In this document: piece by piece, positions 18,482 to 63,428 of the stretch
Numbering within the stretch: the first letter of the stretch is position 1
Layout of the letters: every line of letters begins with the position of its first letter
Origin: Methanolobus vulcani
GTDB taxonomy: Archaea > Halobacteriota > Methanosarcinia > Methanosarcinales > Methanosarcinaceae
NCBI RefSeq assembly: GCF_900100715.1
Contig: NZ_FNCA01000002.1
Location: 186,001-250,000, forward strand
Reading direction: 5' to 3'
Length of the DNA: 64,000 nucleotides
Made by a program: the position numbers and the translations under genes
The notes under the pieces: generated by a model
What the model was told of the DNA's origin: nothing
Database searches by the model: none
The model's input: only the letters and a program-made list of their open reading frames with translations

Positions 18482-19559
18482 ACGAAATGACTGCAGGTTT
18501 TTACTTGCATTCTTCTTTTCCATCATACTTCTAACCGGTTTAGCCCAGGCTGCCGTGTCTGTAGAATATTTCTACGAAGATGGCTGTCTGAAATGCGCAC
18601 AGGCATCGCCTGTAATTGAAGATGTGATTTCCAGTTACCCTGACACCAACTTCAGTTCATACGAGATCAAATCCGCTTTCAGTCTGGCTAAAAGCTATGG
18701 CGTGACGACTGTACCGGCCATTGTTGTAAATGGCAGCACTGTCATTAGTTATAATGATTACGAAGGCGACACCGGGAAACTCAGTTCAATGCTTTCAGAA
18801 GCAATAGAAACAGCTCCTGTGATTGATTATGCTACTGTTTCATCAAAGACTGAGCTTATATCCCATGAATCATTGGATGATCAAACCCCGGCTGTGATTT
18901 TTATTGCCGGCCTTCTGGCAGGTTTTAATCCGTGTCTTATTGCTGTCATGGCCTTTCTTGCATCAGCAATTGTATCTTCCGGAGGGTCCCGCAAGGATAT
19001 GCTTGTCCTGGTTATCGGATTCTGTGCCGGGATATTTGTAACTTATATGATTGTAGGTTTTGGAATACTGAATACCATCACTTCTTTCCCTGGGATAAAA
19101 GATTTAATAACGAAATCCATGATATTCCTTGTTGCGATTTTCGGATTCTGGCACCTCTATGATGCATATTATATCAAGAAATATTCAAAATCCTCATTCA
19201 AAACCCCACATTCCTTTGTAGACTTGATGGATCATGCAAGAGGCAAGAATATACTTCTCATCTCTTTCGTTGGCGGAGGAATATTCTCTCTCGTAAAAGC
19301 TCCATGTGTAGGTGCTGTTTACCTGATGATCCTTGAAATGCTCCTGTCCGGTGGCAACACTGTTAATGCTGTGTTATACATGGGTCTCTATAATTTTGCA
19401 GTTATTCTGCCGATTCTGATACTTGGTGCACTTCTTGCTTTTGGTCTGGATCCTGAAAAGGTCAATGAGTTCAGGGAAAAGAGACGTGTGGAAGTTCGTC
19501 TGATCACGGGACTTATATTGATCCTGCTGGCTGCGTTGTTGCAGTTGAACATCATCTAA
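18444..19559 (+). CDS. Thioredoxin-like domain fused to CcdA/DsbD-type transmembrane domain
   Basis: A 371-residue membrane protein. After a signal-like segment (FLLAFFFSIILLTGLAQA) comes a thioredoxin-fold domain with a CLKC active site and the cis-proline loop VTTVPAIVV. Then six or so membrane helices follow with the paired cysteines FNPCLIAV and KAPCVGAVY that pass reducing power across the membrane in the CcdA/DsbD family. It would deliver electrons to exported thiol proteins, perhaps the cysteine-containing protein just upstream. Its start is uncertain; the ATG at 18444 is the best in-frame choice and lies within the upstream gene. Confidence 0.82.
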   Translation: MIKRPVHRHPVTERNDCRFLLAFFFSIILLTGLAQAAVSVEYFYEDGCLKCAQASPVIEDVISSYPDTNFSSYEIKSAFSLAKSYGVTTVPAIVVNGSTVISYNDYEGDTGKLSSMLSEAIETAPVIDYATVSSKTELISHESLDDQTPAVIFIAGLLAGFNPCLIAVMAFLASAIVSSGGSRKDMLVLVIGFCAGIFVTYMIVGFGILNTITSFPGIKDLITKSMIFLVAIFGFWHLYDAYYIKKYSKSSFKTPHSFVDLMDHARGKNILLISFVGGGIFSLVKAPCVGAVYLMILEMLLSGGNTVNAVLYMGLYNFAVILPILILGALLAFGLDPEKVNEFREKRRVEVRLITGLILILLAALLQLNII

Positions 19560-19902
19560 CAAAGATGTACGCTAAAAACACTGCAACAAGACACAATAGT
19601 AGGTTAAGTCCTATATTCATCATGGAATGTTTGTTCTCTCCCTCATCCAGAAGCCTGAAGCTCTCATACGCGAATGTGGAGAATGTTGTGAAAGAACCAA
19701 GCATCCCTACACTTATCATGTAACGCAGTGTTCCCTCTAAAGAAGTGAATGTCAGCACTGCGAGGACAAAGCTTCCAATAGTATTTACTGCAAGTGTTCC
19801 TGCAGGAATCTCATTTATTCTGGGAATCGCTCCGGAAACAAGATATCTGAGGTTTGCACCGATAAAACCTCCGATCCCTACAAGAATTATCTCATATGCC
19901 AG
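19552..19902 (-). CDS. crcB: CrcB fluoride channel, second copy, probable CTG start
   Basis: A protein of about 116 residues with the CrcB features GIGGFIGANLRYLVSG, VNTIGSFVLA and GMLGSFTTFSTFAYE and four membrane helices. CrcB (Fluc) exports fluoride; many organisms pair two unlike copies. The frame has no ATG, GTG or TTG in its first 45 codons, and a TGA lies six codons before 19902. GGAGGG ends about 7 bases before a CTG at 19902, the likely start. It overlaps the first crcB by 11 bases and may be translationally coupled. A start at 19758 would remove the first half of the domain. Confidence 0.8.
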   Translation of the reverse strand: MAYEIILVGIGGFIGANLRYLVSGAIPRINEIPAGTLAVNTIGSFVLAVLTFTSLEGTLRYMISVGMLGSFTTFSTFAYESFRLLDEGENKHSMMNIGLNLLLCLVAVFLAYIFVR

Positions 19903-20290
19903 TTCCTTCCCTCCTTCTCATTAAATATATCACCAGTGCCCTGCCGGCGAAAATTCCCGCAAGTGTCAGGATGACGTTTGCAAGAATATTGAATGCGGCT
20001 TCAGCCAGTTGCATCTGGAATGTCTGGACCATGAATGTCGAAAAAGTAGTAAGTGATCCGCAAAATCCAATTCCCACAAACATACGTGTTCTCGGAGACA
20101 CAATGCCAAGGTACTCAGAGCTGTACATGAGGATACCAATAAGTATGCTCCCAAGTACATTTACCACAAGTGTTCCGGATGCAGAAGTAAAGTATCCCGC
20201 AATAAGGAATCTTGATATTGCTCCAAAGAACCCTCCCATGCCGATGGTGATAAGTTCTGAGCCCTGGTTTTTCAGATAATCACTATTCAA
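19892..20290 (-). CDS. crcB: CrcB fluoride channel, first copy
   Basis: A 132-residue CrcB protein: GMGGFFGAISRFLIAGYF, VVNVLGSILIGILMY and GFCGSLTTFSTFMVQTFQ, with four membrane segments. The start is a TTG at 20290 that overlaps the end of moeA by 8 bases. It is followed by the second copy with an 11-base overlap. The last genes of a moaD-moeA-crcB-crcB operon. Confidence 0.88.
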   Translation of the reverse strand: MNSDYLKNQGSELITIGMGGFFGAISRFLIAGYFTSASGTLVVNVLGSILIGILMYSSEYLGIVSPRTRMFVGIGFCGSLTTFSTFMVQTFQMQLAEAAFNILANVILTLAGIFAGRALVIYLMRRREGTGI

Positions 20291-22960: not shown

Positions 22961-23512
22961 TCACTCCCAGCGTTTGTAAACGTCGTTTTCAATATCCATC
23001 AGATCAAGTGCACGACCTGCCATTGAATTAACAAGATCATCGATTGTCTGTGGTCTGGAATAAAAACCCGGACATGCGGGAAGGATTACTCCGCCGGCTC
23101 TCTCAAGTCTCAGCATATTCTCAAGATGGATCTGGTTAAGAGGGGTTTCACGTGGCATTAGTACCAGTTTTCTTCTCTCCTTTAGGCAAACATCGGCCAC
23201 CCTGCCAAGTAGGTTGTCAGACATTCCGCCTGAGATCTCACCAAGCGTTTTCATGCTGCATGGGGCGATAATCATCCCGTAGAACCTGTGAGAACCGCTT
23301 GCAATTGGCGCTGTAAAGTCATTTTCATCGTAGACTGCATCTGCCAGACTTTCAACATATGATAGTTTGTAATCGGTCTCTATCTCAAGTATCTGCTTTG
23401 CAGCTTTTGTCATAACAAGGTGAGTATAAATGTCAGTTTTTGCCAGAATTTCCAGCAACCGTACTCCGTAAGCAGAACCCGAAGCCCCGCTGATACCTAT
23501 TACTACTTCCAT
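22961..23512 (-). CDS. ubiX: UbiX family flavin prenyltransferase
   Basis: A 183-residue UbiX/Pad1 protein: VIGISGASGSAYGVRLLEIL (FMN-binding), IAPCSMKTLGEISGGMSDNLLGR, LVLMPRETPLNQIHLENML and PGFYSRPQTIDDLV. It makes prenylated FMN for UbiD-type decarboxylases. The gene just upstream is an LpdD-like protein, a family also found with prenylated-flavin decarboxylases. No UbiD gene is in the window. Confidence 0.93.
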   Translation of the reverse strand: MEVVIGISGASGSAYGVRLLEILAKTDIYTHLVMTKAAKQILEIETDYKLSYVESLADAVYDENDFTAPIASGSHRFYGMIIAPCSMKTLGEISGGMSDNLLGRVADVCLKERRKLVLMPRETPLNQIHLENMLRLERAGGVILPACPGFYSRPQTIDDLVNSMAGRALDLMDIENDVYKRWE

Positions 23513-23525
23513 TAAAATCCCTCTC

Positions 23526-23879
23526 CTACTTTCCTATAATTACAGCAAGCTCACTGATCATTTCCTCTGATGCAGCAACGATTTCATTTATTTCGCTGAG
23601 TTTAATATTGTCCAGATGAATGCCAACTATGAATACGGATGTCGCTTTGCAGGCTTTGCTGAATGCCTTTGCACCATTTAGTGCGATCTCAGTTTCCCTG
23701 TGTCCCGGTGTTGTAATCACAGATGAAGATGCCCTTTTTGATTCATGGTCATAGAACCCGATTCCAACAGCTCCTACGTGTTCATCACCACCGGTAAGGC
23801 TGGCAACATAGTCCTCTCCTGTCTTTTTCCATTCAAGCACAAGGCTGATACCCGCCGCAATCTTCCTGATCTCCTGCAT
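23526..23879 (-). CDS. LpdD-like prenylated-flavin-associated protein
   Basis: A 117-residue protein. HVGAVGIG, SSVITTPGHRETEIALNGAKAF and FIVGIHLDNIKLSEINEI match, from memory, the small LpdD-type proteins that accompany UbiX and UbiD-type decarboxylases. Being next to ubiX (13 bp gap) supports this. Its role, perhaps in loading or protecting the cofactor, is not settled. The ATG at 23879 directly follows the HD gene stop, with GAGGAA as ribosome-binding site. Confidence 0.72.
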   Translation of the reverse strand: MQEIRKIAAGISLVLEWKKTGEDYVASLTGGDEHVGAVGIGFYDHESKRASSSVITTPGHRETEIALNGAKAFSKACKATSVFIVGIHLDNIKLSEINEIVAASEEMISELAVIIGK

Positions 23880-32367: not shown

Positions 32368-32931
32368 ATGCTAAAGATACTACGTGAATCCCTGCTGAAT
32401 GCGCCAATCGTTCACAGAGGAAAATATCACTATTTTATTCATCCGATATCGGATGGAGTTCCAAGACTTGAGCCGGAACTTCTGCAAGAGGTTACTGACC
32501 ATATTCTGGGAATGGTCAGCAGGGATTTTGACAAGATTATTGCAATAGAGGCCATGGGGATCCCTCTTGCAACTGCAATATCCATGAAGACCGGGGTTCC
32601 TTTCTGCATTATAAGGAAAAGACCTTATGGTCTTGAAGGCGAAATAAAACTGTCACAGGAAACAGGTTATTCCAAGGGTGAGCTTTACATTAATGATATC
32701 TCAGAAGGTGACAGGGTCCTTATTGTGGATGACGTCATCAGCACTGGGGGAACCCTTGTAGCATTGATGAGTGCCCTTAAGGGAGTTGGTGCCACCGTAA
32801 CCGATACTATTGTAGTTATTGAACGTGGTGATGGTGTTTCCAGACTTAAGGAAATGGGTATTGATGTAAAGACACTTGTTCGCATTGATGTGACAGAGAA
32901 AGGCGTTTCCATCGAGGATATACATGAGTAA
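32368..32931 (+). CDS. hpt: Hypoxanthine/guanine phosphoribosyltransferase, archaeal type
   Basis: A 187-residue type I phosphoribosyltransferase. The PRPP-binding motif is [13 protein letters not shown] (residues 117-129), and [20 protein letters not shown] matches the archaeal Hpt subgroup, whose members have this length. It salvages hypoxanthine or guanine to nucleotides. It overlaps the dph2 start by 8 bases, so the two are coupled. Confidence 0.88.
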
Positions 32932-33919
32932 CGGCGAAGCATTTGATTTCAGACTTGATTACATAATTTCTGTAATTAATGATACAGGTGCAAAAGTAGT
33001 GGGTTTGCAGTTTCCCGAGGGTTTCAAGAGGCGTTCTCCGGGGATAGCTTCTCGTATAGAGAATGAAACAGGTGTAACTGTATTCATTTCCGGAAATCCC
33101 TGTTTTGGAGCATGCGACCTTGACGTTGCTCTGCTTAATGATGTTGATATTCTTTTCCACTTTGGGCATGCTCCTCTTGATGATAACAAACTCTCGCAGA
33201 AAGTATATTTCATAGAGACAAGGTCGGCTGTTGATGTACAGGACGTTGTGGAACTGGCAGCTTCCAGACTGGAAGGCAAACGTATCGGTCTTATCACAAC
33301 GGTACAGCATGTACACAAATTGAATGATGCTGTTAAGGTTCTGGAACGTCATGGAAAAGAATGTGTGATCTGTTCCGGTGACAGCAAGATTGCATATCCT
33401 GGTCAGGTGCTTGGATGTAATTTCTCCGCTGCCCGCAGTGCAGATTGTGATGAGTATCTTTTCATTGGAAGCGGACAATTCCATCCGCTCGGGGTTTCAA
33501 TTGCCATGAAGAAACGTGTCCTTATAGCTGATCCTTTTGTCAATGAGTTGAGGGTAGCAGATCACTCTAAAGTTCTGAGGCAGAGAAGTGCTGTCATTGC
33601 AAAATCCCTTGATGCAGAGGTCTTTGGTATTGTTGTGTCATCTAAACCCGGACAGGAGCGCATGGAACTTGCTATGAAGCTTAAAAATATGGCAAAATCT
33701 CATGGAAAGGATGCACATATTTTCACTATGGACCTTGTAACTCCTGATCAGTTATTGCAGTTCAAGGTGGATGCATTTATCAACACCGCCTGTCCCCGGC
33801 TTGCTATTGATGAGGTTGGAAGGTTCCATGCTCCAATGCTGACTCCACTTGAATTTGAGATCGTGCTTGGAGAAAGGGAATGGGAAGACCTTTACTTTGA
33901 TGAGATCACAGGTGAATAA
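32924..33919 (+). CDS. dph2: Diphthamide biosynthesis protein Dph2 (3-amino-3-carboxypropyl transferase)
   Basis: A 331-residue Dph2, an unusual radical SAM enzyme that begins diphthamide synthesis on elongation factor 2. Three separated cysteines hold the cluster: in [10 protein letters not shown] (near residues 59 and 63), AARSADC (near 170) and [11 protein letters not shown] (near 287). GLQFPEG and [14 protein letters not shown] are family segments. Start overlaps hpt; the next gene begins 2 bp after its stop. Confidence 0.93.
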
Positions 33920-33921
33920 GA

Positions 33922-34509
33922 TTGAAGCAACGTAAGCTTGAGATGTTGTTGGAGCAGGTGGAAGGTTTTGATTCTCCAAATGTGAACCTTGAGCAATATG
34001 CAACTCCTGCATTACTCGCGGCTGAAATGCTTCATTTTGCATATATGCAGGGTGATCTGGAAGGAACTGTCTTTGATCTTGGATGCGGGACAGGTATGCT
34101 TGCAATTGGTGCAAAGATTCTTGGAGCAGAGAAAGTTATAGGTTTTGATATTGATAACAAGGCTCTGGAAGTTGCCCGCAGGAATGCTGAAAAACTTGGT
34201 GTTGATGTTGAGTTCCTCCATGCCGATATTTTCGAAGTTGAAGGGCACGCTGATACTGTTGTCATGAATCCTCCGTTCGGCGCTCAGGCCAAAGGCAATG
34301 ATCGACCGTTTCTTTTAAGTGCGTTGAAAACCAGTGATGTGATATATTCCATTCATAATTGCGGGAGCCATGATTTTATAAGTAAGTTCATAGGTGATGC
34401 CAGGATAACAGACTGGTACTCAACGGCATTTCCAATGAAACGAACATTTAAATTCCATAAAAAAGAAGTAGAAATGGTAAAAGTAGAGATTTATCGGATA
34501 GTGCGATAA
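33922..34509 (+). CDS. METTL5-like SAM-dependent N6-adenine methyltransferase
   Basis: A 195-residue methyltransferase. QYATPALLAAEMLHFAY, the SAM-binding FDLGCGTGMLAIGA and the catalytic NPPFGAQ are features of the METTL5/archaeal COG2263 group, which methylates an adenine in small-subunit rRNA in eukaryotes. The start is TTG at 33922, with GGTGAA upstream. It belongs to the hpt-dph2 run. Confidence 0.87.
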   Translation: MKQRKLEMLLEQVEGFDSPNVNLEQYATPALLAAEMLHFAYMQGDLEGTVFDLGCGTGMLAIGAKILGAEKVIGFDIDNKALEVARRNAEKLGVDVEFLHADIFEVEGHADTVVMNPPFGAQAKGNDRPFLLSALKTSDVIYSIHNCGSHDFISKFIGDARITDWYSTAFPMKRTFKFHKKEVEMVKVEIYRIVR

Positions 34510-34560
34510 TATTTTAAGAAATGCGGTTCTTACTTGAAGGAATTCATGGATTTGTGCATT

Positions 34561-34568
34561 TTTATATA
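34561..34568 (+). promoter_or_regulatory. TATA box of the csl4-rpoL genes
   Basis: TTTATATA lies about 25 bp before 34590, so transcription should begin within the in-frame extension upstream of the csl4 ATG rather than near that ATG. Confidence 0.55.
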
Positions 34569-34582
34569 ATTTCAGATTATAA

Positions 34583-34819
34583 GAAGGGATTCTAATTAGG
34601 ATAAGAAATAGACGTAAGACTTCACGCAGGAAGATCAAATCATCTGATTCTGAAGACCAGCAGGTAAGTGAAGAAAAGGTTCTTTCCTCAGAGACAGAAG
34701 TAGTTGAGGCGCCTAAAAAGGTTGCTGAAGACTCTGTCAAAGAAAAAGAACAGGGCCGTGAAAGAAGGTCAGGAAAGAAAGACAATAAGGCCGATAAAGG
34801 ATCAACAGAAGATGATGAT
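34583..34819 (+). other. In-frame coding-like extension of csl4 without standard start codon
   Basis: These 79 codons follow a TAA (34580-34582) and run without a stop into the csl4 ATG at 34820. They encode a very charged sequence (basic NRRKTSRRKIKSS, then acidic and Ser-rich), as expected of a disordered tail. No ATG, GTG or TTG occurs in frame. ATT at 34595 or ATA at 34601, a few bases after AAGGG (34584-34588), are the plausible starts. Confidence 0.55.
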
Positions 34820-35407
34820 ATGGATGATGAAGAGGAACTTAGTACAGAAGAATCTGTATTTGTAATGCCCGGTGACTTTGTAGGAACTACTGAAGAGTTC
34901 AAGGCAGGCGCAGGAACTTATGTCAACGTTGCAGATATTCACTCACTTAACACCGGATATGTAAAAGTTGACAGAAAATCACGAACAATCTCCATAATAC
35001 CTCAGACAAGTATTCCTCCTGAGATCAAAGAAGGCGATATTGTTATCGGAAGCGTTGTCAATATGCGTGATTCAGTGGCTCTTGTTGAAATTGGTGCGAT
35101 CAAAGGAAAGGGAGAGCGTGAGTTCCAGACAAATGGCGCTGCAGCAATTCATGTATCCAATGTGAAAGATTCCTATGTCAAGAACCTTGGCTACGAGTTT
35201 TCACTTTCTGACGTTGTCAAGGCAAAGGTCATTAACACTCAGAATATGCGTCTGAGTACCGATGAAAAGTCCCTTGGAGTTATGAAGGCATATTGTTCAA
35301 GGTGTCACAGCCCTATGGTAAAGGACAATAAGAAACTGAAATGTCCTGAATGTGGTCGCACAGAGACAAGAAAGATTTCTGCAGATTACGGAACCGGAAT
35401 TGTTTAA
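34820..35407 (+). CDS. csl4: Exosome RNA-binding subunit Csl4
   Basis: A protein of at least 195 residues. VFVMPGDFVGTTEEFKAGAGTYV begins the Csl4 N-terminal domain, followed by an S1 domain (GDIVIGSVVNMRDSVALVEI) and a C-terminal zinc ribbon (CSRCHSP and CPECGRT). It caps the archaeal RNA exosome and recruits RNA and DnaG. The ATG at 34820 is the first standard start, but the frame probably begins upstream at a rare codon (separate entry). rpoL follows by 53 bp. The hpt-dph2-methyltransferase-csl4-rpoL order is common in archaea. Confidence 0.9.
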   Translation: MDDEEELSTEESVFVMPGDFVGTTEEFKAGAGTYVNVADIHSLNTGYVKVDRKSRTISIIPQTSIPPEIKEGDIVIGSVVNMRDSVALVEIGAIKGKGEREFQTNGAAAIHVSNVKDSYVKNLGYEFSLSDVVKAKVINTQNMRLSTDEKSLGVMKAYCSRCHSPMVKDNKKLKCPECGRTETRKISADYGTGIV

Positions 35408-35460: not shown

Positions 35461-35739
35461 ATGGAATTGAAGATCATTGACAAAACAGAAGACGAGATGC
35501 ATCTTGAGATAATTGGTGAGAACCACACTCTTCTCAACATGCTCAAGTCCGCTCTGCTCGATGACAAGAGAGTTCAGATAGCAACATACGACATGAAACA
35601 CGTATCAATTAGTGATCCTATCCTTTTTGTAAAGACAGATGGAGCCGATCCTATTGAAGTGGTCAAGGATGCTGCTAATGTTATGGTAACTCAGTGTGAT
35701 GAGTTCCTTGGCGTTTTTAAAACAGCTATTGATATTTAA
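35461..35739 (+). CDS. rpoL: DNA-directed RNA polymerase subunit L
   Basis: A 92-residue RpoL (Rpb11-like). EDEMHLEIIGENHTLLNMLKSALL and the alpha-like dimerisation fold are typical; with RpoD it forms the assembly platform of archaeal RNA polymerase. GGTGA lies upstream of the ATG. Probably co-transcribed with csl4. Confidence 0.95.
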   Translation: MELKIIDKTEDEMHLEIIGENHTLLNMLKSALLDDKRVQIATYDMKHVSISDPILFVKTDGADPIEVVKDAANVMVTQCDEFLGVFKTAIDI

Positions 35740-37130: not shown

Positions 37131-38039
37131 TTATGCAATTGTGGTACTAACCAACAATTGATTCGCAGGATCATTTGTTATTTCAAATGAGGCCTTTTCA
37201 GAAGAACCTAGATTTGCTGCACGTTCAACTCTTACATATAGTACGAATGATTCTCCATTATCCAGCGAGTACACATAATGATGTAATCCAAGTTGTTCGC
37301 TTATTTCCGGTGATTGAATTGTCTCACCAGGGTTTAGCAAATAACTTTCATTAAATATGGATTTGTTATACGGATCAAAGACCTCTACAGAAAATTCGTG
37401 ATTTAAACTGTCTTCGTTGATTATATCAAATGTAAGAGGGTCTACAGAATATTTTTCCAGCTCTGACCTTGAATCCGTTATGTCGTAAACAGCTACATAG
37501 TGGACAGTTTTTCCGTCAGCTACAACATCAGTAGGGAAGATACTGTACATTCTGTCATAGGTTGTTATGGATGCATATACTTCCTCTCCTCTGAGAGACA
37601 TATCTACGTTGTAATCGGGATTCTCCTGTGCAAAACCTTTGTACCGGATTACATCCTGGTCACGGTCATCTATTACCTGGATTACAATATCAATGTCTTC
37701 ATCCATAAGAGCAATGTTCAAAGTTCCATTTCTTGCGAAAGCATTCAATTTTTCTGTGTCTATTATGACAGTTTCATTGTAATCCCAGTCTTCAGGTAGT
37801 TTGATGGAAACTGAACCAACGTCAACCTTAGAAACAATTCCTGTGCGTTGTTCTATTTTGGTGTTTACAGCACTTGTTTGAGAGGTGATATTTTTCTGTC
37901 CATCTGATACAGTACTTAGGTTATATTCTTCGCTCATATTTTCATGATTTCCGAGTGTTCTGGAATGTAAAAAGGCACTGGCAGAAATAACAGAAAACAG
38001 AATGACTAATAGTACAATGATTTGATTTTTTGCTTTTAT
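37131..38039 (-). CDS. Secreted/membrane-anchored protein, probable ATA start
   Basis: A protein of about 302 residues that I do not recognise. From an ATA at 38039 it has a clear N-terminal signal or anchor segment (KAKNQIIVLLVILFSVISASAF), and this ATA is preceded at 5 bp by GGGAGGGAG, a very strong ribosome-binding site. The first ATG (37937) lacks such a site and would remove the signal. The exported part is beta-rich, with possible Ig-like domains (KYSVDPLTFDIINEDSLNHEFSVEVFD) and several N-glycosylation sequons. A minus-strand TATA element lies near 38095-38102. Confidence 0.72.
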   Translation of the reverse strand: MKAKNQIIVLLVILFSVISASAFLHSRTLGNHENMSEEYNLSTVSDGQKNITSQTSAVNTKIEQRTGIVSKVDVGSVSIKLPEDWDYNETVIIDTEKLNAFARNGTLNIALMDEDIDIVIQVIDDRDQDVIRYKGFAQENPDYNVDMSLRGEEVYASITTYDRMYSIFPTDVVADGKTVHYVAVYDITDSRSELEKYSVDPLTFDIINEDSLNHEFSVEVFDPYNKSIFNESYLLNPGETIQSPEISEQLGLHHYVYSLDNGESFVLYVRVERAANLGSSEKASFEITNDPANQLLVSTTIA

Positions 38040-38264
38040 GTAAACTCCCTCCCGACGTGGTACTTAACTATACTTCTAACTGTTTAATTAATCTTTTTAT
38101 ATAATGTATTATTTCATGGAAGTATTATGTAATGTTCTTTATGATTTCATATCGCCAGTCGCTATACTATCTAACGTTTTTTTTGTCAAAAAATCGATAG
38201 AATGATATACATAGAAAATTGAGTATAGAAAAACAATTATCTCTGTAACAGGAGCAAGCTATAC

Positions 38265-61543: not shown

Positions 61544-62103
61544 AACGCATAGATGCTATCAATGAGATTGCTGCAAAAGTAAAGGAAAGCGGTGCTCTGC
61601 TCATAGGCAATATCGGAATTCCATGTAAAGAGATTCATCATGTTTGTGACATCCCGACAAATTTCTACATGCTTGGTTCCATGGGACTGGCTTCTTCAAT
61701 AGGGCTCGGTCTTGCACTTGCACGACCTGACAAAAAGGTTGTTGCAATAGATGGCGATGGTTCCATCCTCATGAATATGGGAACTCTTGCAACCATAGCT
61801 ACACAGAGTCCTGAAAATTACCTGCTGGTAATAGTTGACAACGGAGCCTACGGTTCAACAGGTAATCAGCCCACTGCTACGTCTGTTGTAACTGACCTTG
61901 CAGCAGTTGCAAGAGGTGCCGGTAACAGGGATGTTCTTGAAGTATCAACTCCAGAAGGACTCAGGGATGTGCTGAAAAAAACAGAGAAAGGTATCATTGT
62001 TGTAAAAGCAGAGCCTGGAAATACTGATGCTCCGGTAATAGAAATGACACCTGAAGGAATAATTAAGAGGTTTATGGATATATCCTCTCAACCATCTCAT
62101 TGA
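61540..62103 (+). CDS. comE: Sulfopyruvate decarboxylase subunit beta
   Basis: A 187-residue subunit. The TPP-binding motif is GDGSILMNMGTLATIATQSPENYLLVIVDNGAYGSTGNQPT and GSMGLASSIGLGLALARP precedes it. In some Methanosarcinales comD and comE are one fused gene; here they are separate and coupled. GGAGG lies upstream of the ATG. Its last 32 bases overlap the 3' end of the convergent comF gene. Confidence 0.93.
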   Translation: MKRIDAINEIAAKVKESGALLIGNIGIPCKEIHHVCDIPTNFYMLGSMGLASSIGLGLALARPDKKVVAIDGDGSILMNMGTLATIATQSPENYLLVIVDNGAYGSTGNQPTATSVVTDLAAVARGAGNRDVLEVSTPEGLRDVLKKTEKGIIVVKAEPGNTDAPVIEMTPEGIIKRFMDISSQPSH

Positions 62104-63355
62104 GCTTGAATTCTCCGCTCAATATCTTTTCTTTCAATTTTTCTGCCATTTCTTCTGCTCTCTTGCGGTCAGACTGCCGCAGGACAATAGGTACATCCTG
62201 ATGCTTTCCTTCCATTTCAAAGTGAAGGGTTCCAAGTTCGGCAGTGAAAACTCCTCCCGGACAGACAGTTGAGCAGAATCCACAATTGAAGCACTGGTAT
62301 CTATTAAGCAATATTCTATTGTCTTTGCGCTGAATTGCTTCCATTGGGCAGTCCCTGATAGGTTTGCAGACCTCACAATCAAGACATGCATCAGGATTGA
62401 AACTTATTGCACGGTCAGTATTTTTCCATGCATCTGCATAGGTGCTGCTGCCAATCATGACTCTTTTATCGACATCGTTTACAACCATTGGAATGTCACT
62501 GTCTGTCTGCAGGGCAGCATCAAGTACAGACTGGCTAGTGACTGGTATAGCAATTGCCCATGATGCTATGCACTCCGGTCCGGCGGATGTTTTGAATCCT
62601 CCCATTAGGGCTGCGTCCATCTTGTGCATATCGGCAACGCCTGTGAGATTTGGTTTTGCAGGGCTGCTGCGTGTTCCTTCTCCGATAACGAAACCTTCGG
62701 CTCCGTTCATGAGTACGCGTGTACCAATTCCAATTGTTTCCATCTTTGGGTCATTCTGAACCGGATTAATCTCTCCACAACCGGAAAGCGTTGCACCGTG
62801 CATGTCAGGGCTGAATTGGGTTGCATGGAAAATAGTATTCACAGGTTTATCGGAACCATTTACAAAAGCTGCATAATTCTTGAATGCATGTCTTGTGGCA
62901 TAGAGTTTGGCAAAAGGCATATCCACCAGTTTAACCTGGCTTTCTATTGTTTCTTCTTCATTTGTTACAACAGAAACATTAACTTCCTTTCCTTCAACAA
63001 GTTCCCTGAAAACATGTCCGGCACCGTAATTGTGTTTGAGGACTGAATGTGCGGTTCCAAATACTATCGCATCGACGATTCCAAGACTTTCATTCGGGCA
63101 TGGTCCAACATGTGCAGGAACGCCGTTGAGAAGCACTTTTGAGGCTCGTTTGAAACATACGGGGGAGTTTACAGGGAAGGACAGAACAGCATAAGTTCCG
63201 CTCATAATGGCTCTTGTTGCGGTTGTAACAACGTCCACATCCATGCTGGAAACGTCTTCTCCTTTGTCCACAAGTTCGGATATCTCCTGAGCTGTCATTA
63301 CAACAGCTTCTTTATTTTCTAATTTCTCCCTGATTTCAGCTACTGAACGTTCCAA
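62072..63355 (-). CDS. comF: ComF / methanogenesis marker 16 (DUF39 with ferredoxin domain)
   Basis: A 427-residue protein: a DUF39 domain (residues 1 to about 325, with SGCGEINPVQNDPKMETIGIGTR, EGTRSSPAKPNL and an early PVCFKRASK cysteine), then two [4Fe-4S] motifs, CLDCEVCKPIRDCP and CFNCGFCSTVCPGG, and a short C-terminal helix. It is the family called methanogenesis marker 16, related to the aspartate-semialdehyde sulfurtransferase and reported to reductively thiolate sulfoacetaldehyde to coenzyme M. Its position facing comDE supports this. Confidence 0.88.
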   Translation of the reverse strand: MERSVAEIREKLENKEAVVMTAQEISELVDKGEDVSSMDVDVVTTATRAIMSGTYAVLSFPVNSPVCFKRASKVLLNGVPAHVGPCPNESLGIVDAIVFGTAHSVLKHNYGAGHVFRELVEGKEVNVSVVTNEEETIESQVKLVDMPFAKLYATRHAFKNYAAFVNGSDKPVNTIFHATQFSPDMHGATLSGCGEINPVQNDPKMETIGIGTRVLMNGAEGFVIGEGTRSSPAKPNLTGVADMHKMDAALMGGFKTSAGPECIASWAIAIPVTSQSVLDAALQTDSDIPMVVNDVDKRVMIGSSTYADAWKNTDRAISFNPDACLDCEVCKPIRDCPMEAIQRKDNRILLNRYQCFNCGFCSTVCPGGVFTAELGTLHFEMEGKHQDVPIVLRQSDRKRAEEMAEKLKEKILSGEFKLNEMVERIYP

Positions 63356-63428
63356 AACTATCCCTCATAAATTGGTTACCATTATTCGCTTAAATATTAA
63401 TTCAAGCGTAAGTAAATATAGAGCTAAA

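Follow-up and report, generated by a model that had tools for sequence, protein, structure and literature searches.

The window, that is, the whole 64,000-nucleotide stretch of Methanolobus vulcani DNA analyzed here, harbors on its forward strand the gene order dph2 (diphthamide synthesis; positions 32924 to 33919, TIGR03682), a METTL5-type rRNA m6A methyltransferase gene (33922 to 34509, matching METTL5 chains in the PDB at an E value of approximately 1.6e-33), csl4, and rpoL, encoding RNA polymerase subunit L (35461 to 35739, NF002237). The csl4 gene, which is present in 59 of 60 relatives, resides in a stop-to-stop frame of 274 codons (34583 to 35407). The assignment of its product to Csl4, made in a sequence-only reading of this DNA, was borne out by a match to the curated model NF034126 at 219 bits against a cut-off of 90 (E = 3.4e-65), which spans residues 93 to 270 of the open frame and leaves the N-terminal extension outside the model. 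Archaeoglobus Csl4 (PDB 2ba1, E = 4.7e-42) aligns with the conserved core alone (34820 to 35407, plus strand; family match from approximately 34859), the match covering nearly the full length of that known protein.

Read from 34583, the codons of the frame run GAA GGG ATT (34589) CTA (34592) ATT (34595) AGG ATA (34601) AGA AAT, and codon-by-codon reading agreed with the earlier claim that no in-frame ATG, GTG, or TTG lies within the 79 codons 5′ of the Csl4 ATG. The first such codon of the frame is that ATG itself (34820 to 34822, codon index 79), which exhibits weak Shine-Dalgarno (SD) pairing (−3.3 kcal/mol) and is presumably the start that automatic gene finding would choose. The TATA box that had been placed ahead of the extension corresponds to the TATA-like sequence ttttatataa (34560 to 34569), located within the operon. 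Downstream of it lie an SD region, GAAGGGAT (34583 to 34590), which reads GAGGGAT in most relatives; a 4-nt spacer, TCTA (34591 to 34594), which is variable in relatives; and ATT (AUU; 34595 to 34597), which we propose as the csl4 start codon on the basis of codon conservation, SD distance, and the onset of coding constraint.

The N-terminal extension of Csl4

The extension preceding the core (34595 to 34819, plus strand) comprises a basic motif, RIRNRRKTSRRK, and then an acidic linker of low complexity; its net charge, +9 over 16 residues counted from ATT 34595 and −14 across the remainder before the core, is that of the basic and then acidic tail described previously. The sequence-only reading went on to speculate that this tail may be disordered and, made from a rare start, might modulate the recruitment function of the exosome. 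The extension is open in each of the 27 Methanolobus genomes studied (82 to 144 codons), its length varying without loss of frame, and the other two frames contain 1 to 6 and 6 to 17 stops. The first 16 or so residues are retained far beyond the genus, and conservation of the initial codons extends throughout the order. Among the five most closely related species, counts of differences at the three codon positions (62/59/95) show only a mild third-position bias and single changes comprise 56 synonymous and 84 nonsynonymous substitutions, indicating that the linker evolves fast and that this count, taken alone, is weak support for coding. Judged from sequence, the extension is a coding region which is conserved across the order.

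Outside the class, csl4 frames are 186 to 213 codons in length, and all 22 outgroup genomes examined, like 2ba1 and unlike the window, lack the basic/acidic N-terminal extension. Within family f7, the start motif defined below is absent from all 30 genomes, 29 of which possess an ATG no more than 12 codons before the core. Far longer extensions, rich in Arg/Gly/Pro repeats, were observed at loci L059 (genome G027), L070, and L260 to L264 (genus g10), where the open frames extend to 367 to 462 codons; that of L059 is cut by a contig end and comprises at least 380 codons.

Comparative analysis of the csl4 start region

The start region was compared across 142 order-level genomes out of 227 genomes of the class with a match, in addition to the 30 genomes of f7 and two of family f6. 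Rows were selected using the motif GGG-AT.-NNN-AT.-ARR (or CGN or AGC in the last position), which is present in 136 of the 142 genomes (24 genera by labels); a wide version of the pattern proved too loose, with chance matches among the matches listed. The six order-level genomes lacking the motif are G035, G027, G153, G039, G043, and G059, among which G027 is truncated by its contig, G153 carries an in-frame stop within the extension, and G043 and G059 contain one extra ATT. Genome G058 carries another exact instance of the SD-ATT motif (contig C102, 42313 to 42331), away from the csl4 position.

Across the 136 motif-holding genomes, the codon at 34595 is ATT in 130 and ATC in 6, and it is ATT in all 11 further genomes which hold the motif. 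The preceding codon, 34592, takes 19 forms (CAT, CCT, and GGC among them) and is ATG in 19 genomes, while codon 34589 is ATT in 103, ATC in 18, ATA in 13, and ATG in 2. Codon 34601 is mainly ATA, ATC, or ATT and is CTN or TTG in 24 genomes, belonging to family f3 and part of families f1 and f2. The sequence-only reading had offered ATT 34595 or ATA 34601 as the start; the former stands as the best candidate, whereas the latter is disfavored by a 13-nt spacer and by its replacement with CTN in relatives. The absence of change in the GGG, AT, and AT columns is a product of the motif by which rows were selected and proves nothing by itself. Changes were, in addition, counted on a core-protein tree of the 115 genomes in which neither 34589 nor 34592 is ATG. 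On this tree, the third base of codon 34595 underwent 4 changes, compared to 10 to 20 for the third base of each of the nine codons that follow. For the first, second, and third bases of 34592, the counts were 18, 5, and 13, respectively, unlike the pattern of a codon, and codon-like periodicity sets in directly after 34595.

Three lines of evidence are independent of the motif selection, the first being a length change in family f6, which belongs to another order. Both f6 genomes read GAGGGAT-GTGCT-ATT-AAG-GTA, and their protein aligns after the ATT; the spacer is 5 nt, making the stretch from SD to ATT one base longer and implying that this stretch is not read in frame. The second is the occurrence of canonical codons at the same place (alignments made by eye): ATG AGC AGA in all six genomes of genus g10 corresponds to ATC AGC AGA in its sister genus g9, and TTG AGG ATA in G039 corresponds to ATT AGR ATA in other genomes. 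The third is the spacing of SD sequences. When the interval between GAGG and a candidate start was tallied in six Methanolobus genomes, a peak appeared at 6 nt (19 cases against a background of 1.6) and 7 nt (18 against 1.2), and ATT 34595, at 7 nt from the SD core, falls within this peak (the SD-like AAGGG at 34584 to 34588 ends 6 nt before it). Distances of 1, 4, and 13 nt yielded 2 cases each, at or near background.

The positions −10 to −5 are fixed, with G at −11 in 130 of 136 genomes, the GGG and AT being set by selection. As a 16S search of the window's own assembly returned no match, the anti-SD was taken from five relatives representing four genera, where the 16S 3′ end is GGATCACCTCCT. 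Two other genes of the window display the same layout as csl4, namely, GAGGGAT-TTTA-ATG (frame 22961 to 23533) and GAGGGAT-AGTT-TTG (frame 62072 to 63364). In the window's own species, the csl4 SD is weak, its AAGGG duplex being estimated at −4.6 kcal/mol versus a median of −6.7 kcal/mol for 59 window genes, and low output is therefore to be expected in this clade.

Standard codons do not account for the conserved N terminus. From codon −6 to codon +12 relative to GGG, ATG, GTG, and TTG are all absent in 94 of the 136 genomes, with some present in the remaining 42. In G054 and G110, the whole stretch from the upstream in-frame stop to the Csl4 core is devoid of them, rendering a standard start impossible there, and the sole standard start before the core in G019 is a GTG only a few codons ahead of it. 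An in-frame stop lies immediately 5′ of GGG in 51 of the 136 genomes, which consequently cannot be served by an upstream start; the same finding led us to reject entry from the METTL5 gene by frameshifting or readthrough. Upstream of the SD, ATG is found in two g4 genomes and TTG in a few. The 19 genomes with an ATG one codon 5′ of the ATT belong to genera g7, g11, and g2; in g7, this ATG is present in 15 of 16 motif-holding genomes and the ATT itself is retained in all 16. At locus L143 (G173, genus g7), AAG takes the place of the upstream ATG and is followed by AUU as usual. The ATG at 34589 in two Methanolobus genomes lies 1 nt after GAGG, which is too close by the spacing data.

Modes of initiation at csl4

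Based on this comparison, the csl4 start most probably lies at ATT 34595. It is proposed, with a probability of roughly 83%, that csl4 is translated from this AUU in an SD-directed manner using the ordinary initiator tRNA and that this start is old in the class, having been kept in most lineages and shifted in a few.

The strongest of the alternatives, which we nonetheless regard as unlikely, is that ribosomes finishing the METTL5 gene reinitiate at the csl4 AUU. Of 25 genomes in family f5, 21 have the METTL5 stop 2 to 15 nt ahead of the AUU and 2 have it overlapping the AUU; in genus g22 (family f2; G052 and G072) the stop overlaps the AUU in both genomes, at a distance of −5 nt, in the form ATTAG, an overlap type which is given as possible only with an ATT start (PMC10666635). 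Such overlaps or very short gaps were found in f5 and g22 alone and not in the window's genus, where the gap measures 80 to 115 nt in 27 of 27 genomes, a distance beyond the coupling range reported in PMC10666635, and the distance rises to 305 to 478 nt in genus g7 (14 of 16 found; L135 to L150 among others). Lineages other than Methanolobus, namely f5 and g22, may thus use coupling with METTL5.

Somewhat less probable is leaderless or near-leaderless initiation, in which transcripts from the TATA-like sequence at 34560 to 34569 would carry the AUU at or near their 5′ end. The position of the box fits the 19- to 22-nt spacing between TATA and transcription start in M. psychrophilus, a species in which 15.6 to 16% of transcripts have leaders of <10 nt (PMC5378194); if that spacing is counted from the 3′ end of the box, transcription would start near 34588 to 34591. 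Given the 80- to 115-nt gap and the internal TATA box, transcripts starting near the SD are possible in Methanolobus, and transcription from the box may begin at the SD or beyond it. Against this mode as the general explanation stand the conservation of the SD sequence and its spacing and the arrangement in f5, where a METTL5 stop within 10 nt of the AUU, or overlapping it, leaves no promoter gap in 22 of 25 genomes.

A start of the extension at another nearby codon (ATT 34589, CTA 34592, or ATA 34601) is improbable. The substitution of ATG at the first two of these places in 2 and 19 of the 136 genomes would be compatible with it, as would the retention of AT at 34589 in 136 of 136, this AT being part of the selection, but the corresponding spacers of 1, 4, and 13 nt occur at or near background in Methanolobus, the SD-to-ATT length differs by one base in f6, and codons 34592 and 34601 are variable; these starts were rejected on spacing and codon variability. 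Least probable is that the extension is untranslated, with Csl4 starting at ATG 34820 and the upstream conservation reflecting a regulatory element: that ATG is present, the core alone matches the solved archaeal structure, and frames outside the class are short, but the reading frame and amino acids are conserved over the order, G054, G110, and G019 offer no or just one nearby standard start, and SD pairing at ATG 34820 is poor, for which reasons it was rejected as the sole start. A folded RNA element was likewise rejected, as neither stretch folds better than shuffled sequences (z scores of 0.55 and −0.24).

Initiation at AUU 34595 is retained as the preferred reading, reflecting the absence of a standard start that serves the conserved N terminus, the SD distance, the onset of constraint, and the canonical starts of orthologs. 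In this mechanism, the SD would position the ribosome with AUU in the P site, where the ordinary initiator tRNA would decode it through imperfect pairing, such that initiation at AUU 34595 presumably occurs with methionine and the protein would begin Met-RIRNRRKTSRRK. The AUU start would be old in the class, with a few lineages having moved to AUG one codon upstream or to AUG or UUG at the same codon. The weak codon could hold Csl4 at a low or adjustable level, by analogy with the AUU of E. coli pcnB.

Relation to known near-cognate starts

The infC gene of E. coli initiates at AUU, which is associated with autoregulation, and pcnB of the same species is reportedly another AUU-initiated gene (Binns and Masters are said to have described it in 2002). 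As in csl4, the AUU of infC and pcnB is placed on genes of translation or RNA 3′-end metabolism (PMC4245954). PcnB adds tails to RNA, an activity of which the archaeal exosome is also capable; the systems differ in that IF3 operates in bacteria and aIF1 in archaea, and in that dose limitation through the pcnB AUU is established in E. coli, whereas the likeness of csl4 is a matter of sequence. S. aureus cvfC1 (AUU), ccpN, and infC (both AUA) resemble csl4 in having conserved AUU/AUA starts placed by an SD and give a reduced yield, approximately 10% of AUG in reporters (PMC13009471); those starts are bacterial, experimentally established, and accompanied by an extended strong SD, in contrast to the archaeal csl4 start with its comparative evidence and weak SD.

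For AUU in E. coli, PMC10666635 cites a yield of approximately 0.3% of AUG, compared to the approximately 10% in S. aureus, where the SD is extended. As aIF1 in Sulfolobus and Pyrococcus systems selects against codons of this kind (PMC6237735 and PMC8211752), low yield from AUU is to be expected. PMC8211752, a 2021 review, describes noncanonical translation in Archaea as shown for elongation and termination only. In the related archaeon Methanosarcina mazei, Ribo-seq assigned a CTG start to 5% of unannotated small open reading frames, and the main text, to the extent available, mentions CTG and not AUU or AUA, with the exosome and Csl4 absent (PMC11456600). A search of the openly available literature for AUU or near-cognate starts in archaea listed no archaeal AUU case by title or abstract.

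Companion starts within the window and implications

The claim that csl4 is one of three genes with nonstandard starts in the window gained support from the finding that orthologs of the other two possess standard starts at the same place. The second crcB (minus strand; frame 19552 to 19917) would start at CTG 19900 to 19902, which lies 7 nt after a GGAGG in six Methanolobus genomes. From 24 crcB loci given, 3 were without an anchor, and 6 of the remaining 21 fall in a clade in which both copies share a frame; orthologs in separate frames have TTG (1), GTG (6), or ATG (2) at this position, while the shared-frame clade has GTG (1), ATG (3), ATC (1), or GTC (1), a codon which need not be a start when both copies lie in one open frame. 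At loci L293 to L299, in several Methanolobus, the two crcB copies occupy a single frame of 285 to 290 codons and possibly represent a fused gene. The second companion, in frame 37131 to 38063 (minus strand), has a candidate ATA start at 38037 to 38039, which is ATA in four species and ATG at the same place in G005. Its N terminus resembles a signal peptide by inspection, and paralogs carry ATA (L323, L322, and L314) or ATT (L315) at the start position. The SD duplex of both companions is strong (−11.1 kcal/mol).

A census of 76 conserved frames in the window, 68 of which comprise at least 100 codons, identified 8 whose first standard start falls >20 codons downstream of the median alignment start. 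These are csl4, crcB, the 37131 gene, and five frames that were set aside: 63434 and 63606, which are antisense to a minus-strand gene reaching the window end, and 40992, 51832, and 63291, which are 51 to 67 codons in length and overlap other genes.

A wider reading, which we advance tentatively and consider doubtful as a whole, is that AUU has been the selected csl4 start since the class ancestor, tying the Csl4 level to the stringency of initiation (through aIF1 and perhaps METTL5-dependent m6A at the decoding site), and that AUU, AUA, and CUG serve as starts for a few percent of the genes, these being truncated by gene finders. The retention of the AUU in most of the relatives compared suggests that weak start codons have long persisted in these archaea and have been overlooked. 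If confirmed, the csl4 AUU would represent a start codon beyond ATG, GTG, and TTG that is conserved over an archaeal order, providing a natural test bed for archaeal start-codon fidelity, and Csl4 would gain approximately 75 residues, including a conserved basic motif resembling RNA-binding sequences. Together with the crcB and 37131 genes, it would mean that automatic start calls may be wrong for several percent of the genes in these genomes.
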